64,000 bases of DNA from Halococcus qingdaonensis (GTDB lineage Archaea; Halobacteriota; Halobacteria; Halobacteriales; Halococcaceae): NCBI RefSeq assembly GCF_024508235.1, contig NZ_CP101943.1, forward strand, positions 992,001 to 1,056,000, in the 5' to 3' direction. A program made the position numbers and the translations under genes. The notes under the pieces are model-generated. The model was not told the DNA's origin, made no database searches, and worked only from the letters and a program-made list of their open reading frames with translations. Positions 34,037 through 40,943 of the stretch are shown here, piece by piece. Position 1 is the stretch's first letter, and each line of letters begins with the position of its first letter.

Positions 34037-34333
34037 ATGTCAACCACCCATGCGGCGAACGCGCGTGCGGTCGTCGAGTCGCTCTCCTATCGGGACGCTC
34101 CGCTCGATCGGACGCCGGCGCGCGACGACGCCGTCCTCGCCGCCTACAAGTATCTCATCACCCACCGATCGCTCTCGCGGCTCGGCCTCGTGGCGAACGT
34201 CCATCCGCGCCGGGACGCCGGACTCGACTCACGGGAGTGGTACGAACTGCTGGTCTCGCCGTTGCTCCGCGAACTCCCCGGTGTGTCGCCGCCCGGACCG
34301 GGCACGGCGACGTGGCGGTACGTGCCTGAATGA
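34037..34333 (+). CDS. Conserved haloarchaeal hypothetical protein
   Basis: A 98-residue soluble protein with two clusters: a helical N-terminal half (ANARAVVESLSYRDAPLDRTP) and a C-terminal part with REWYELLVSPLLRELPGVSPPG and final TWRYVPE. No Cys, no signal. It is the last ordinary gene before the mobile-element region. I do not recognise the family. An upstream in-frame ATG eight codons earlier is less well placed relative to the TATA box. Confidence 0.65.
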   Translation: MSTTHAANARAVVESLSYRDAPLDRTPARDDAVLAAYKYLITHRSLSRLGLVANVHPRRDAGLDSREWYELLVSPLLRELPGVSPPGPGTATWRYVPE

Positions 34334-34408
34334 GTAGCGGCGACGAGGCGATCGCTATGATACGTAGTGGAAACGACCAGACGCTTTTCTCCACCACTAC
34401 TTCTGGGT

Positions 34409-34520
34409 ATGAGCACCGATCAGCGTCGAACCCCACTCACCGACGAAGACGAATTTTGCTCAAGGACAGGAGTATCGGTACATGCGGGATCACTCGGGAG
34501 CGGAAGACAGTACGCAATAG
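34409..34520 (+). pseudogene. Frameshifted tiny gene (about 36 residues before damage)
   Basis: ATG at 34409 opens MSTDQRRTPLTDEDEF. One extra T in a TTTT run (about 34454-34457) then moves translation out of a coherent second half, AQGQEYRYMRDHSGAEDSTQ ending at TAG 34520. Both halves have host-like composition, and deleting a single T joins them. This is my reconstruction; no homologue is recognised. Confidence 0.4.
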
Positions 34521-34618
34521 CGGGCACGGCTAGGGCTGGTGTATCGCGCTGAACACGAAGATGTGGAACGGTTTTTTATTGATCGTGTGCCGCCTATTGA
34601 CTTTACCCTATCTGAAGA
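34521..34618. other. Short gap with possible gene remnant
   Basis: The plus strand encodes LVYRAEHEDVERFFIDRV in one frame (about 34538-34591), which reads like the end of a normal haloarchaeal protein but has no start. A T-run at 34572-34577 follows. It may be the scar of an earlier rearrangement at the edge of the accessory region. Confidence 0.3.
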
Positions 34619-35058
34619 TCAACCATCATCGTCATCTCCGACAGTAGCATCAATGAAAACTGGACGCTCGGTGCCGTCTTCAAGTATGAAGTTCACAATT
34701 ACATCAGCATTTTTGCATGAAGAAGCGAGGCTCTCAAATTTAATATCTTGGTCATCCTCGTCATCCACGTCATCAAACATATCAATATAGACGGTAGAGG
34801 TATTAACCGTCGTGGGGCCACTGTTGAATCGATATTCATTTGATTCACTGAAGATTATTGGGGTAGTTTGAGAGTTAGTCGAATAGCTCAGAATTTCACT
34901 ACCGCCATCTTTAATTACAAACTCGTGAGGTGATCGAGATTTTTTCACATCGTTGAGATCGTTCGCAGTTATCACCGAGAATTTTTCTATGCTGACGGAT
35001 GAACTGGGCGTGATTTCGAAGTTGAGTTGTTCAGGTTCTGAACTATACAAACCAGGGG

Positions 35059-36459
35059 CATCCGTCTTTAGCTAACTCCAGCAGTTGGTTGAGCGGCGGT
35101 AGCGAACCGTTCCTGTAGGATTGGGCGCTCTTGATGAATTTTCTGTGCGTCAGCGATCATCCGCTCTAACAGCGGCGGTGGCGAGTAGCCGAGATAGTCG
35201 CTGAGTCGCTTGAGAATTCGCTGGGCGTGCGACCGGAAGGTCGCCGCCCAGCGTTCCGGTGGAAACACCGCGTCATCGTCTGCGTGCTCGATCACCAACT
35301 CCAGCAACTCGCGGCTCACCAACAGCGTCAGCACCGCCGCATACAGCAGAATCTCCACTACTGCAGGGTTGCTCGTGTCGAACTCATCGAGTTCGTACAG
35401 CGTCTTCAGCTCGCGGAACAGCAACTCCACCGCCCACCTGCAGCGGTACATCGTCGCTATATCCGCCGGTAGGAACCACTTTCTCGGGAGATTCGTGATG
35501 TAGAAGTGGTAGTCGTCGGCGTCCTCGTTGCGGACGCCGACGATGCGGAACCGCTTCGTATCCCATGATCGCGTGCCCGCGTACAGTCCGCGTCTGAACT
35601 CCACCTCAACCTCGACATCAACGTATTTGCGGTGGAGATCCTCCGCAACCTCGAAGACCTGCTCTCCTTCCAGCGGAATGGCGCGTCCGCGCCATTCCCG
35701 CAGTTCTGCGACGATCTCCGGCTTGGTATTGCGCTTGAGACGGCTCACGAAGAAGCCGCCGTTCTCGTCGATCAGAGCGAAGCGGCGGAACTTGAAATAC
35801 GCTAAATCGAGCAGTAGCAACCGTCCTTCTAGCCACGATCCTGTGTTGAACTCGGTGCTGTCGTGAGGACGTTCGCCGGTGATCGAGAGCTTCTCGATGG
35901 TTCGATCGGTGACGTTGTGGAGCAGGTGGAGCTTCGCTCCAGCCTGCTCCTCCCGGCGGCCTTGGTACTGCTCCTTCAGGAACCGATGTAACCGCAGAAC
36001 GGTTGCATCGGCGACTATCACGTCCCTGAATTGGTCGAACTCGTCGCTGACGGTATGAGGGATAGCGACCTCGTCGAGCGCGAACTCGACGAGGTCGCGG
36101 AGATACGTGGCGAACAGTGGCGTCAATCGTTGATAGAAACCGCCGGGTGAGAGCGTCTTGTCGGCAGTATCGTTGTAGGCGCGACGAAACGCAGCGAGTG
36201 TTCGGCTTTCGCCTGCGGCGAAGCCGAACACGAGCGCCCGGACCATCGCTGGAACCTGGAACTTGCCATCGCGTTCGACCACGCCGACTGCCTCGGCGTG
36301 GTCTTCGAGAGCTGTCGATGGAAAGAGCGTAGTGAGCCGCCGTTCAATTCGGTCCGAGGAGGGTTCGTCGCTCACACCGAACTCCTCCTCATTCCATTCA
36401 GGAACCGACTTCGCTTCCAGCCGCAGTCATGCGGTTTATCGCTTAGCTAAAGACGAATG
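35059..36459 (-). mobile_element. ISH8-like IS4-family insertion sequence, 1401 bp
   Basis: Ends are inverted repeats of 17 bp with one mismatch: CATCCGTCTTTAGCTAA at 35059-35075 and its inverted partner at 36443-36459. The element is flanked by a perfect 10-bp direct repeat AAACCAGGGG (35049-35058 and 36460-36469). Length and duplication size match the ISH8 group. The single transposase gene ends inside the left inverted repeat. It looks intact and recent. Confidence 0.93.
35068..36375 (-). CDS. IS4-family transposase (ISH8 group)
   Basis: A 435-residue DDE transposase. The first catalytic Asp lies in VIVADATVLRLHR and the second in LLLLDLAYFKFRRFALIDENGGFFVSRL. The YREK signature is in MYRCRWAVELLFRELKTLYE, spacing Y-2-R-3-E-6-K as in IS4. 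It is full length, with no frameshift, so probably functional. The stop codon overlaps the terminal inverted repeat. Confidence 0.93.
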   Translation of the reverse strand: MSDEPSSDRIERRLTTLFPSTALEDHAEAVGVVERDGKFQVPAMVRALVFGFAAGESRTLAAFRRAYNDTADKTLSPGGFYQRLTPLFATYLRDLVEFALDEVAIPHTVSDEFDQFRDVIVADATVLRLHRFLKEQYQGRREEQAGAKLHLLHNVTDRTIEKLSITGERPHDSTEFNTGSWLEGRLLLLDLAYFKFRRFALIDENGGFFVSRLKRNTKPEIVAELREWRGRAIPLEGEQVFEVAEDLHRKYVDVEVEVEFRRGLYAGTRSWDTKRFRIVGVRNEDADDYHFYITNLPRKWFLPADIATMYRCRWAVELLFRELKTLYELDEFDTSNPAVVEILLYAAVLTLLVSRELLELVIEHADDDAVFPPERWAATFRSHAQRILKRLSDYLGYSPPPLLERMIADAQKIHQERPILQERFATAAQPTAGVS

Positions 36460-36914
36460 AAACCAGGGGATTCGAGTTCCGCTCCCAGGTTACAGCGAGA
36501 AGGGCCTGACGCAGGTGGATAGTTCAGTCCGAACGTCACGGAGCTGTTGTCGCCGCTCGCGTTGGCGAGCTCGGCAGTGATACCCACCGTACTCCCGCTG
36601 TCAGCAGCGGCCGGATCGTAGGCGAACGTCACGTTGCCATCGCCGTCTGAAGTTGCGGTGTTCGTCGATAGATTTCCAGAGCCATTCACCTTGCTGATGT
36701 CGACATCCACACCGGGATAATTCCCTCCAAAGATATCCGTTGTGCGGACAGTAAGCTGTGTCTTACTGTTGAGAGGCTCCACTTCGGGATGCAGCGGCGT
36801 GACGTTCGTAATGCGGGGTTCCAGTCCGAGATCGTCTTCCTCATCCGAGTTGTACTCACCAGCAGCGACCTTGTTCGCCATAATTGAGGTGCCGTTTTTC
36901 AGTTCGATAGAGAT

Positions 36915-37868
36915 CTGGTTGACACTGCTCTATTGAAAACGACACACGGCGTCGGGATTGTTCGGTATTGGTTTGAGGAGATGAAGCCGAAGAGTCGGAT
37001 ATGGCAATCGTTCTCCTCGACTTCGTTGAGAAGGCACTACGCGTAGCGAAACAAGCGTTGGGGAAGCACGCGGGGAAGCCCGAATCAGGCGGGCTTCCCC
37101 GCGAGGCGCACATCGTCGCTCACTGTATTCGGAAGGAAGAAGGCCACACCTTCACCGAACTTGTTGATCGGATCGGTCTCATGCCTGAGGTGTGCGATCT
37201 CCTCGGACTCCATACAGACGCGCTGCCTGATCCGACCACGTTCTACCATTCGATTGATCGGTACGCGATGTACGTCTGGCGGGCGTTGCTGCGCACTTCG
37301 GCGCAGCAACTCCGCCAATCTGGTCATGTGGCACTGGACAGTACGTTCTTCGAACGCAAGCAGGCCTCTCAGTACTATCTCCAGCGAAGCGGCCGCACCG
37401 TCAAGACGATCAAGGCGACGACGCTGACCGATACAGAGTCGCTTGCAGTGCTGGACGTCCATTGCTGTATTGAGCGTGAACACGACACGAAGGCTGGCCC
37501 GCGGGTCGTCCGCAGGAACGCGGACGACCTGCGGTCAGTCGCTGCTGACAACGGGTTCCAAGACTGGCACACCGAATACGAAATCGCTGCGTTAGACGTT
37601 GAGTACCTTGTTCACCATCAAGGATCGAGACCGATGGCCGTTGCGAATAACGCGCTCATCCGAGCGAAGGGCTACACCCAGCGATGGATGTCCGAGACGT
37701 CTTATTCGACGGTCAAGCGAACGCAGGACTCCGCCCTGCGTTCGCGATTCTGGTATCGCCAGTTTCGTGAGATCGTTCTTCTGTTCGCGCTCAACAATAT
37801 CAAGAAACTCGCCAAGACGCTATGATCGTACTCCCGTACCGCATTTTCAATAGAGCAGGATGAACCAG
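36915..37868 (+). mobile_element. IS5-family insertion sequence, about 950 bp, no target duplication
   Basis: A perfect 15-bp inverted repeat CTGCTCTATTGAAAA (36925-36939; partner 37844-37858) extends outward with CTGGTT on both sides to 36915 and 37868 with a few mismatches. No direct repeat flanks either choice of ends. The left flank is the truncated surface-protein gene while the right flank is unrelated non-coding DNA, so a deletion or recombination probably occurred at this element. Confidence 0.8.
37001..37825 (+). CDS. IS5-family transposase
   Basis: A 274-residue DDE transposase. The first Asp is in HVALDSTFFERKQAS. The second Asp region is around ADNGFQDWHTEYEIAALDVE, divergent from many IS5 members. 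The C-terminal catalytic Glu is near RWMSETSYSTVKRTQDSALRSR. The length fits haloarchaeal IS5 members. There is no frameshift, so it is probably intact. It is encoded opposite to the pilus genes. Confidence 0.88.
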   Translation: MAIVLLDFVEKALRVAKQALGKHAGKPESGGLPREAHIVAHCIRKEEGHTFTELVDRIGLMPEVCDLLGLHTDALPDPTTFYHSIDRYAMYVWRALLRTSAQQLRQSGHVALDSTFFERKQASQYYLQRSGRTVKTIKATTLTDTESLAVLDVHCCIEREHDTKAGPRVVRRNADDLRSVAADNGFQDWHTEYEIAALDVEYLVHHQGSRPMAVANNALIRAKGYTQRWMSETSYSTVKRTQDSALRSRFWYRQFREIVLLFALNNIKKLAKTL

Positions 37869-38183
37869 TTCCCACCGAATTCGAGGTAACGAAAAGAAGA
37901 GTATAGCTAAGGTAGCCGAGTATCCCCTTCACGATTTCTAACCTATTGATAGCGCCCGTTAGAGACTTTGTACATCCTCGCAAATCGGTGAAATAGCGTG
38001 TAGCTCGTTCTGAGTACTTCAAGGTGCAAAGACGGGTGAGATGGTGGTCGGTTGATTTAATGGATATAGTGATAGAGAGCCACCTTTGAGACGAATAGGT
38101 ACTCTACCCCTCCGAATTTTTTGATGGGTATAAGACTGGCATGGTGTCGAAGCTACGACTCTCAGATTGGCTCTATGGTGCTT
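37869..38183. other. Non-coding flank between IS5 element and hairpin array
   Basis: About 315 bases of lower G+C than the core. No gene with host-like codon use is present; the best minus-strand frame is Leu/Ser/Thr-rich and runs out of the IS element. AT-rich TTAATGGATATAGTGATAG near 38059 and a T-run near 38118-38123 could be a promoter and a terminator respectively, but neither is placed before a gene. Confidence 0.4.
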
Positions 38184-39260
38184 TCAGAAACGTGGGAGAC
38201 GTGAGTGAAGTGGGCGCTATCCCACGTTCCCCGGTCGATGGATGCAATGTCACAACCGGGATTCAGTGTAAAAAATCGAAATACCAAAGCATTGTGGCCA
38301 ATTAACAGATAACTAAAGCTTCGGGTAATACCGTCAGAAAACGTGGAGGTAGTGAACGCTATCACCACGTTTCCCCGGTAGGATGAAGCGGGTACCGGGA
38401 TTCGATCCACAGATACCGTTTCAAAAAGAATTCTGGCCGTACATTGAAGATTCAGACATGCCAACAGAGAATTACGATCAAACGAGGGTCTGCCGAGTAG
38501 CCGGGTTTGAGCGTATCAGAAAACGTGGGAACTGCGAACTGACATGGCATTCATCCCACGTTGCTACGGGAGTCGATCGGGGGGATACGGTGACTCCCCG
38601 GTTCAATAGATAGTTGGAACTACCAAATAGATTCTGGCCATATGCTGATTAGTTCTCAGAAACGTGGGAGGCACCGACCAAGATACCTTCCCACGCATAT
38701 CATGGGTGCGGTCATCGCCAGTCGAATCAAAACGTGGGGTGAACGAACTGACAGACGTTTCCCACGCTTTTGTCCTCTGGCTCCGGGATAACCGCGTTTC
38801 TACTGACGGGCAGTGATAGTAAATAGATTGTGGCCAATTGTCATATGATTAAGTCGCATATCTCTCTGAAAACGTGGGAAGCAGGGAATGTATGACGACC
38901 ATGACATGACCTCTCCCCACGTTACTATGGATTCGATCAATTGGGGATACGGTGACTCCCCGTTTCGGATGATAGTTGGTACTGTCGAATAGATTGTGGT
39001 CATACTACTAAGCAATTTTCTCAAAGCGTGGGGTGAATTGGGCTGAAGGATGTTTCCCACGCTCCGATGTCTGATGGGACGACAGTCCCAATTCCACTTA
39101 CAAATTGATGCAACAAATAACTTGTGGCCGGTTAACACAGATGAGCCTCGGCGATTTTCTCCTCAGAAAACGCGGGGATACAGGTGACCAGACACCTTCC
39201 CACGCTCCCCGGACGAATCCATGGTAGCAGTACCGGGGATTTTGACCAACGCGAGGGAAC
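38184..39260. repeat. Tandem array of eight diverged hairpin units (about 70-182 bp each)
   Basis: Units begin with TCAGAAAACGTGGG-like boxes at 38184, 38334, 38516, 38656, 38727, 38865, 39021 and 39163. In units 1-7 that box pairs with a CCCACG-like box 18-35 bases on (CCACG in unit 2), giving stems of 6-9 bp with variable loops; in unit 8 the pairing is imperfect. A second hairpin follows in most units. For example, a 19-base block with GGGG and CCCC ends, identical in units 3 (38581-38599) and 6 (38943-38961), has this layout. Then comes an AATAGATTGTGGCCA-like box, seen in units 1, 2, 3, 5, 6 and 7. Unit 7 changes both stem arms together (AGCGTGGG/CCCACGCT). No gene is encoded. Confidence 0.85.
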
Positions 39261-39476
39261 ATGTAAAGCGTTGTGTCTTTCTTAGGGAGGGGTTCCACTC
39301 GAAATAGAGGTTATCAGTGACGGCAATTCAGGGATGATTTCACTCCCGGGTTTTGCCCATAGAATCGTAAACCATAGGTAGAGGCGAAACGACAAAGGAA
39401 TACGGACGATTAGGATGTTTCGAGTCCGGGTGAAATCGTATATAGAATCTATTGCTGGCTGGATGTTACGACGAGG
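39261..39476. other. Non-coding segment between array and IS4 element
   Basis: No supported gene. The segment is moderately AT-rich and is cut on its right by the IS4-family element, whose 8-bp target copy CGACGAGG lies at 39469-39476. Joining it to pilC across that element gives a stop after a few codons, so it is not the continuation of pilC. Confidence 0.45.
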
Positions 39477-40943
39477 CTGTCCCGTTTCGAGTTGATAAAG
39501 GCACCGAGCGAGCAAGGTGTGGAAGGCGACAAGAACAGGTGGTGTGAATCCGCCAGCGCGAACTGACCGACGAAAGAACGTGCTCCAGTCAGCTTGATTC
39601 CGGAGTTTCCCCTGCTAATTGAGTCAGAAACGGTAGCTTCGGGAGAGCCGCCGCTCATGGCGGCGGCAATCCCACCCCGAAATCGGCCTCAGCCGTACGA
39701 GGGGAGCGATTGATTCCAGCGTGTCCGAAGCTTCCGGATCGCTTCCGGCACGCCACCCCGCAGTGGGTGGCAGTGCCGGAACCACTCCATGAGCACGTAC
39801 CCAATCAGCGTACAGAACAACTCGAACAACACGCCGTTGAGCGATTTTGAGTGGAAGTTCTCGGTGTTTGTGTACTGTTTCAATTCACGGAATAGAATCT
39901 CGATAAGGGTCCGTAGCGTATAGATACGCACTACGTCCACTGGATCATACTCTGCTGAAGACAACGTTGTGAGGTACTCGATTTTGCCACCGTCAACGTC
40001 CTCAAACACGATTTGACGGAATTGTTCACCAGTCTCACCCAGTTCAATGCGCTGGTCACACACGCTTCGTGTCCCTGCTTCGTCAGTAATCTCGACGTCT
40101 TGGACGCGCCCCAAGACGTCTATCCGAGCGTCTGATCGAAGCAACGTGACGAAATCCTCGTCACGTCGCTTCATCGCGCAGAAACGCTCGTAATCGAGGT
40201 AGCCACGGTCGAAGACCTGAATCGGCGAGTCGAGGTCTGCGAAGACCTCGACGTCGCTTTGGAGGTGCTCGAACTGCGTCGGTTCGCGAGTGTCACCTCC
40301 GGTGACGGTCATACCGAGCGGCTGCTTGTATTTGCCGTCGACGCGTGCAGCCAGATTGAGCTTGAGTCCACCGTCTGTCGGCTGGATCTCGTGCAGAATC
40401 TTCTCGTCCTGGAGCTCGCTCGGAATCGCAACCGATCTGGTGAGCATGAGGTTTGTTGCGTCAATCGCAACGACGGATCGATTGAGCCACTCCAAACGCT
40501 TTCGCTGAACGCCACGCTGATGGTATAGTTGCGGAGTGTGGAGTAGCTCGAACAGCACGCGAACGACCGCGCGATAGTCGCGGTCGTTCGTGCGCCGCGA
40601 GAAGGTTGAAGCGGCCATGTACGCCATCTGATCGTGAGTATCAGTTTTCTCGGCGAGTTCAGCCAACGAATCAGACGGATTGATTCCCTCGAAAGCACCG
40701 ATCCTGAGATGATTATCGAAATCGTGTTTCTCGTTGTAGGTGCCGATATCAAATTGTTCAGCAGTCGACTCGCTGTCGACTGCGTCGAGCAGCGAGTAGA
40801 ACGCACTCGCAGTGGTCGGTGATCGCTGAGGTCCATCAGGAACCGCCTGTCTCGATGACCGCCTCGTCTGGGGTTCAACTGTGCTTGCCATCACCTCGGC
40901 TATGACGGGCTCACGCCGGATTTAAATAGTCGAAACGGGACAG
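39477..40943 (-). mobile_element. IS4-family insertion sequence, 1467 bp
   Basis: Terminal inverted repeats CTGTCCCGTTTCGA (39477-39490; partner at 40930-40943) enclose one transposase gene. A perfect 8-bp direct repeat CGACGAGG flanks the element (39469-39476 and 40944-40951). It truncates pilC at its right end. The left arm of about 210 bp outside the transposase gene contains no other gene. Confidence 0.88.
39689..40894 (-). CDS. IS4-family transposase
   Basis: A 401-residue DDE transposase. The first Asp lies in VVAIDATNLMLTRSVAIP. The second is in IQVFDRGYLDYERFCAMKRR, followed by FVTLLRSDARID. The YREK motif is in YTLRTLIEILFRELKQY. The start is GTG at 40894 or the adjacent ATG at 40891. 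It is not closely similar to the other IS4 transposase at 35068-36375, so this is a separate element. It seems intact. Confidence 0.9.
   Translation of the reverse strand: MMASTVEPQTRRSSRQAVPDGPQRSPTTASAFYSLLDAVDSESTAEQFDIGTYNEKHDFDNHLRIGAFEGINPSDSLAELAEKTDTHDQMAYMAASTFSRRTNDRDYRAVVRVLFELLHTPQLYHQRGVQRKRLEWLNRSVVAIDATNLMLTRSVAIPSELQDEKILHEIQPTDGGLKLNLAARVDGKYKQPLGMTVTGGDTREPTQFEHLQSDVEVFADLDSPIQVFDRGYLDYERFCAMKRRDEDFVTLLRSDARIDVLGRVQDVEITDEAGTRSVCDQRIELGETGEQFRQIVFEDVDGGKIEYLTTLSSAEYDPVDVVRIYTLRTLIEILFRELKQYTNTENFHSKSLNGVLFELFCTLIGYVLMEWFRHCHPLRGGVPEAIRKLRTRWNQSLPSYG

Follow-up and report, generated by a model that had tools for sequence, protein, structure and literature searches.

A 64,000-nt stretch of the Halococcus qingdaonensis genome (2.7 Mb on a single contig), referred to here as the window, carries an array of eight related units between two transposase genes (37001-37825, plus strand, and 39689-40894, minus strand). 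The initial annotation had placed this array of hairpins between two insertion sequences, correctly, and all eight units were found at the start positions it gave. The array is real, but its proposed end at 39260 is slightly short, as the promoter box of unit 8 ends at about 39276. On the plus strand, a unit consists of hairpin 1 and hairpin 2, a gap of about 24 nt, and then a box. The strand and the promoter of the units had been missed. Read on the minus strand, seven of the eight units (1, 2, 3, 5, 6, 7, and 8) follow a full gene plan of box, 21-nt spacer, and RNA, with predicted RNA lengths of 70 to 102 nt. The features of the array are as follows.

38182 to about 39276, minus strand: whole array, eight predicted small RNA (sRNA) units, seven of them with a putative promoter (from sequence, profile, and promoter box)
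39264 to 39276, minus strand: unit 8 promoter box, ACACAACGCTTTA, at 21-nt spacing to the predicted RNA start
39162 to 39242, minus strand: unit 8 predicted sRNA, 81 nt, 5' end at 39242 (match to covariance model R2)
39115 to 39127, minus strand: unit 7 promoter box, CCACAAGTTATTT
39018 to 39093, minus strand: unit 7 predicted sRNA, 76 nt, with compensatory stem AGCGUGGG/CCCACGCU
38987 to 38999, minus strand: unit 6 promoter box, CCACAATCTATTC
38864 to 38965, minus strand: unit 6 predicted sRNA, 102 nt
38821 to 38833, minus strand: unit 5 promoter box, CCACAATCTATTT
38724 to 38799, minus strand: unit 5 predicted sRNA, 76 nt
38654 to 38708, minus strand: unit 4, hairpin 1 alone, without promoter or hairpin 2
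38625 to 38637, minus strand: unit 3 promoter box, CCAGAATCTATTT
38515 to 38603, minus strand: unit 3 predicted sRNA, 89 nt
38424 to 38436, minus strand: unit 2 promoter box, CCAGAATTCTTTT
38333 to 38402, minus strand: unit 2 predicted sRNA, 70 nt
38285 to 38297, minus strand: unit 1 promoter box, CCACAATGCTTTG
38182 to 38263, minus strand: unit 1 predicted sRNA, 82 nt

Several details of the earlier description held up; for instance, unit 7 does carry a paired change, and units 3 and 6 do have a second hairpin in common. Others had to be revised. Unit 4 (71 nt) is present and had been counted among the eight units, but it has neither hairpin 2 nor a promoter; it is a truncated copy, a promoterless fragment, and may belong to unit 5 by read-through. 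The pair in unit 8 that had been called imperfect becomes a U-G wobble in RNA read from the minus strand. The window units are diverged, with a column identity that averages 43%, and the array was therefore missed by tandem-repeat software. A profile recovered all eight units, the short unit 4 included, at E values of 5e-27 to 1e-7, which are self-matches because the profile was built from the window units together with copies on H. dombrowskii plasmids.

The strand of the units is indicated mainly by two features that flank the hairpins. The box was first noted on the plus strand as an "AATAGATTGTGGCCA box"; it is indeed present, but it had been read in reverse and is a BRE/TATA-like element at a fixed spacing from the RNA start. 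Reverse complemented, it reads CCACAA-NN-T[A/T]TTT, and exactly 21 nt separate it from the AA at the base of hairpin 2. The distance between hairpin 2 and the box is nearly constant, while the intervening sequence is poorly conserved. The box is present in 43 family copies, 37 of which have an A at the 21-nt position (the promoter being predicted from sequence). The haloarchaeal promoter consensus consists of a BRE of CGAAA and a TATA element of TTWT (PMC4983044). When this published BRE+TATA consensus was scanned along 45 copies, the minus strand peaked exactly at position -33 from the RNA start, with a mean score of 5.53 of 9, versus at most 3.47 in 200 shuffles; the plus strand had no comparable peak. 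As far as sequence can tell, the order and spacing of box, spacer, and start are those of a haloarchaeal promoter. One lone, diverged copy at another place in the window's genome (L033) carries a literal TCGAAAGATTTTT at the same spacing.

At the other end of the unit, the minus strand 3' of hairpin 1 reads CCCACG-TTTTC-TGA. At least three consecutive T residues are found in 43 of 45 copies, and T3 plus C follows the last hairpin in 37 of 45. Intergenic termination in Haloferax occurs at a T stretch ending at C (PMC7237163); the T tracts of this family are short, mostly of 3 to 4 T residues. The strand assignment rests mainly on the promoter and the T tract because wobble pairs are balanced in the core stem and folding energy does not discriminate the strands (the separation was not significant). 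Over all pairs, the minus-strand reading has 88 G-U versus 29 A-C combinations, partly because pairs were picked in that orientation; within the six-pair core of hairpin 1, the two combinations are about equally frequent. By the box, its spacing, and the T tract, the functional strand is almost certainly minus, and the units are probably minus-strand sRNA genes.

The stems of the units covary. Covariation was scored in a model-based alignment of 51 matches, a few of them opposite-strand or marginal. In this alignment, which was fitted to the structure and hence leans towards it, 92% of cells pair, compared with 86% in shuffles and at most 60% with slid partners; two-sided changes occur in 12 of 16 pairs (5.6 in shuffles) and in 56 cells (20.7 in shuffles). 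Stem variants are still visible by eye, and the compensatory stems of hairpin 1 include, in the plus-strand reading, CGUAGG/CCUACG, CGUGAG/CUCACG, CGUGGA/UCCACG, and UGUAGG/CCUACA. Covariation, one of the checks proposed with the initial annotation, is still there when more copies are aligned. The two-hairpin architecture is constant, and stems are better conserved than loops. Loops have k-mers in common far above shuffles, and they are kept between orthologues across species but differ between paralogues, a pattern that would fit RNAs whose partners are related yet not the same. The loops of hairpin 2 are often C-rich (CUACCACCUGC, ACCACCUG, ACCCGCUU, and ACUACUGCC).

The family has a narrow distribution. 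With the covariance model (E ≤ 0.01), units were found in 4 of 10 Halococcus genomes, with 8, 5, 10, and 21 matches; for independent copies outside the window, per-genome E values range from 3e-21 to the 0.01 cutoff. No units were found by the model in the other three genera of the same family, and across 391 sampled Halobacteria genomes from 86 genera, matches were confined to Halococcus, the 85 other genera having none. Weak R2 matches (E of 0.002 to 0.01) at five loci (L124 to L128), in five genomes of another haloarchaeal family, were rejected as members because they represent a different GC-rich hairpin that lacks the promoter box. That hairpin, around GTGAGCAGCCACGCCGCGCAACCCCCCGCGC at the locus centers, is conserved in the five genomes. 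The array's best named relative, about 80% identical, lies on plasmid NZ_CP095009.1 of Halococcus dombrowskii, and units also occur on a second plasmid of this species, NZ_CP095006.1, as an array beside a tRNA-Thr gene and as a single unit between two MFS genes. Phage records contained no family match, and hairpin pattern scans of viral and genome contigs returned only chance hairpins. On both strands, Rfam gave nothing above the gathering score; its one subthreshold match, to FinP, was outside the array. Titles and abstracts of the open-access literature held nothing relevant on Halococcus sRNAs or hairpin arrays, though an earlier description elsewhere is possible. The PilB-like ATPase encoded near the array is 98% identical between the window's genome and two other carriers; in the third other carrier it is in two pieces (94% and 81%), and in noncarriers it is 79 to 80% identical. 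These identities suggest that the carriers form one clade.

Family copies are intergenic, and in the annotated plasmid records no homologue of a unit was seen inside an insertion sequence or a protein gene. No gene family was common to all flanks. Some copies are degenerate. There are positional subfamilies among the units: orthologues of each of units 1, 2, and 3 occur on other replicons with the order preserved, and the sequence after unit 2 varies. A separate set of units adjoins tRNA-Thr(TGT) in two species and one plasmid, and three units beside this tRNA gene retain their order and setting from one species to another; the tRNA gene lies beside related units on several replicons, a megaplasmid included (L065 2217-2293, L073 12168-12245, L029 679-755, and L159 5683-5760). 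Two species also share a conserved single unit next to an amidohydrolase gene. In the window, the array block lies in a transposase-rich stretch (34300-40940) next to the PilB-like operon; in three relatives this stretch is absent or different, and the syntenic site consists of 2 to 3 kb of other sequence without units. Blocks of units therefore appear to move or to be lost with rearrangement. Judged by these sequences, duplication, exchanges that respect unit boundaries, and the transfer of blocks seem to have shaped the arrays. A shared upstream remnant resembling an IS605-type 3' end was observed at three loci (L022 11797-11878, L027 592-678, and L067 9586-9672); in L022 and L067, some 118 nt lie between it and the closest unit.

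As a whole, the data are probably best explained by a family of sibling minus-strand sRNA genes that encode what are likely trans-acting regulatory RNAs. Each unit would be a self-contained gene, in which TFB and TBP would bind CCACAA-NN-T[A/T]TTT, 22 to 34 nt ahead of the start. The RNA would start with a purine, at the AA that forms the base of hairpin 2, and at 70 to 102 nt in length it would fold into two adjacent hairpins and end at T3-T4-C just past the second. Tandem duplication, block transfer, and exchange of units would have produced sibling RNAs that have one stem scaffold in common and loops particular to each paralogue. The sequence itself shows the strand-specific promoter-like box and its spacing, the covarying structure, the T tract, and the distribution; transcription, termination, and action in trans are inferred. 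There is perhaps an even chance that the RNAs act by base-pairing of their loops with mRNAs, in which case the seeds may lie in the C-rich loops of hairpin 2, CUACCACCUGC for example. A search of 10 genomes for complements of two conserved loops yielded no credible target; the sole match outside the family was a motif in a conserved coding gene that is also present in a species without the RNAs. More speculatively, and improbably, the units could form a lineage-specific regulatory system in which clusters of individually promoted, modularly shuffled two-hairpin RNAs serve as exchangeable guides or seeds, have spread on megaplasmids and chromosomes, and are recruited by a dedicated protein partner.

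The main alternative to base-pairing is that the RNAs are transcribed as proposed but bind a protein, as a sponge, decoy, or scaffold, with the stem as the binding site and the copy number as the dose. The better conservation of stems than of loops, the constant two-hairpin architecture, and the many copies (up to 21 per genome) would all fit this idea. A decoy bound purely through its stem would not, however, need loops that share k-mers above chance and are conserved between orthologues, and we consider this reading possible but rather unlikely. Another alternative is that the RNAs are guides of the box H/ACA, C/D, CRISPR-like, or TnpB-like kind, serving an enzyme that is RNA-guided or that modifies RNA. 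Such guides would combine variable loops with a constant scaffold; some plus-strand loops resemble a K-loop, and TnpA/TnpB elements lie near some copies. The K-loop likeness is on the wrong strand and is missing from many units, and the L7Ae-type reading of these loops was dropped because the minus strand is favored. On inspection, the minus-strand RNAs had no box C/D or H/ACA elements or K-turn, and they had no Rfam match. CRISPR-type repeats are absent, and a CRISPR array was rejected, the units being diverged and 71 to 182 nt long and TRF having reported no array. A linkage to IS605/TnpB was also rejected: elements occur near some copies (with the remnant in L022, L027, and L067), yet Y1 transposases are found in Halococcus species whose genomes lack units. 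A guide function of any of these kinds is thus very unlikely.

Two further alternatives take the units as DNA elements. Of the three readings offered in the initial annotation, that of a multicopy small RNA agrees with the data; the other two, a replication or recombination site and a cis-regulatory array, are disfavored because they leave unexplained the one-strand promoter-like box, its constant spacing, and the covarying hairpins with their T tract. A DNA-level element without an RNA product, such as a protein-binding or recombination array or a set of cruciform sites, would agree with the lack of strand bias among wobble pairs of the core stem and with the apparent exchange at unit boundaries. 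Such an element is quite improbable given that the promoter and T tract are one-sided and that loop length varies widely, unlike in dimeric protein sites; integron attC core sites (RYYYAAC/GTTRRRY) were not seen at unit ends. A nonautonomous mobile repeat (a MITE, PATE, SMR-like element, or substrate of a Y1 transposase), in which the likeness to a promoter would be incidental, would account for dispersed, multicopy units in one clade, for insertion sequences adjoining several loci, and for the position of the window's block in sequence unlike that of the syntenic loci in its relatives. Haloarchaea are known to have PATEs and SMRs (PMC3119063). Even so, this explanation is doubtful: the copies are diverged and have unit-specific orthologues in the same order, unlike the products of recent transposition; related transposon ends, terminal repeats, and target duplications were not noticed in flank comparisons, which offered no precise empty site; unit-free species also carry Y1 transposases; and the constant 21-nt promoter spacing is left unexplained. 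Like PATEs, MITEs, and SMRs (PMC3119063), the Halococcus units are short, noncoding, and multicopy, with palindromes or inverted repeats, but they differ in having the apparent anatomy of a gene (promoter, start, and T tract).

For the putative sibling sRNA genes, the closest working analogue may be the sibling sRNAs of bacteria, of which OmrA/OmrB, PrrF1/PrrF2, AbcR1/2, csRNAs, and Qrr have been reviewed (PMC4211561). OmrA/B are 88 and 82 nt long, and the reviewed siblings occur in 2 to 6 copies (PMC4211561), whereas Halococcus has up to 8 in tandem and 21 in total. Both groups comprise homologous small RNAs, arranged in tandem or scattered, that share some parts and have diverged in others. 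The Halococcus units have no homology to OmrA/B, PrrF1/2, AbcR1/2, csRNAs, or Qrr; they differ in their archaeal promoter, the T stretch at their end, and the strong divergence of their loops, and their function is putative. Among archaea, intergenic sRNAs of Haloferax volcanii have been mapped by dRNA-seq (PMC4983044). The Halococcus units are similarly intergenic with BRE/TATA promoters, which in their case are predicted, but unlike those sRNAs they are tandem and multicopy and, among the sampled Halobacteria genomes, limited to Halococcus. If transcribed, they would constitute a previously undescribed family of archaeal sRNAs that exceeds the reviewed bacterial examples (PMC4211561) in siblings per genome, and a natural experiment in the diversification of sRNA loops on a fixed scaffold. 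The family provides base-level predictions of starts and ends that are testable in culturable Halococcus strains, and it would illustrate how what looks like an array of DNA repeats may prove to be a block of RNA genes when the other strand is read. Just upstream of the array, the plus strand has a match to the haloarchaeal promoter consensus, CGAATTTTTTG (window positions 38113-38123), which could mark the start of an antisense transcript across the array.
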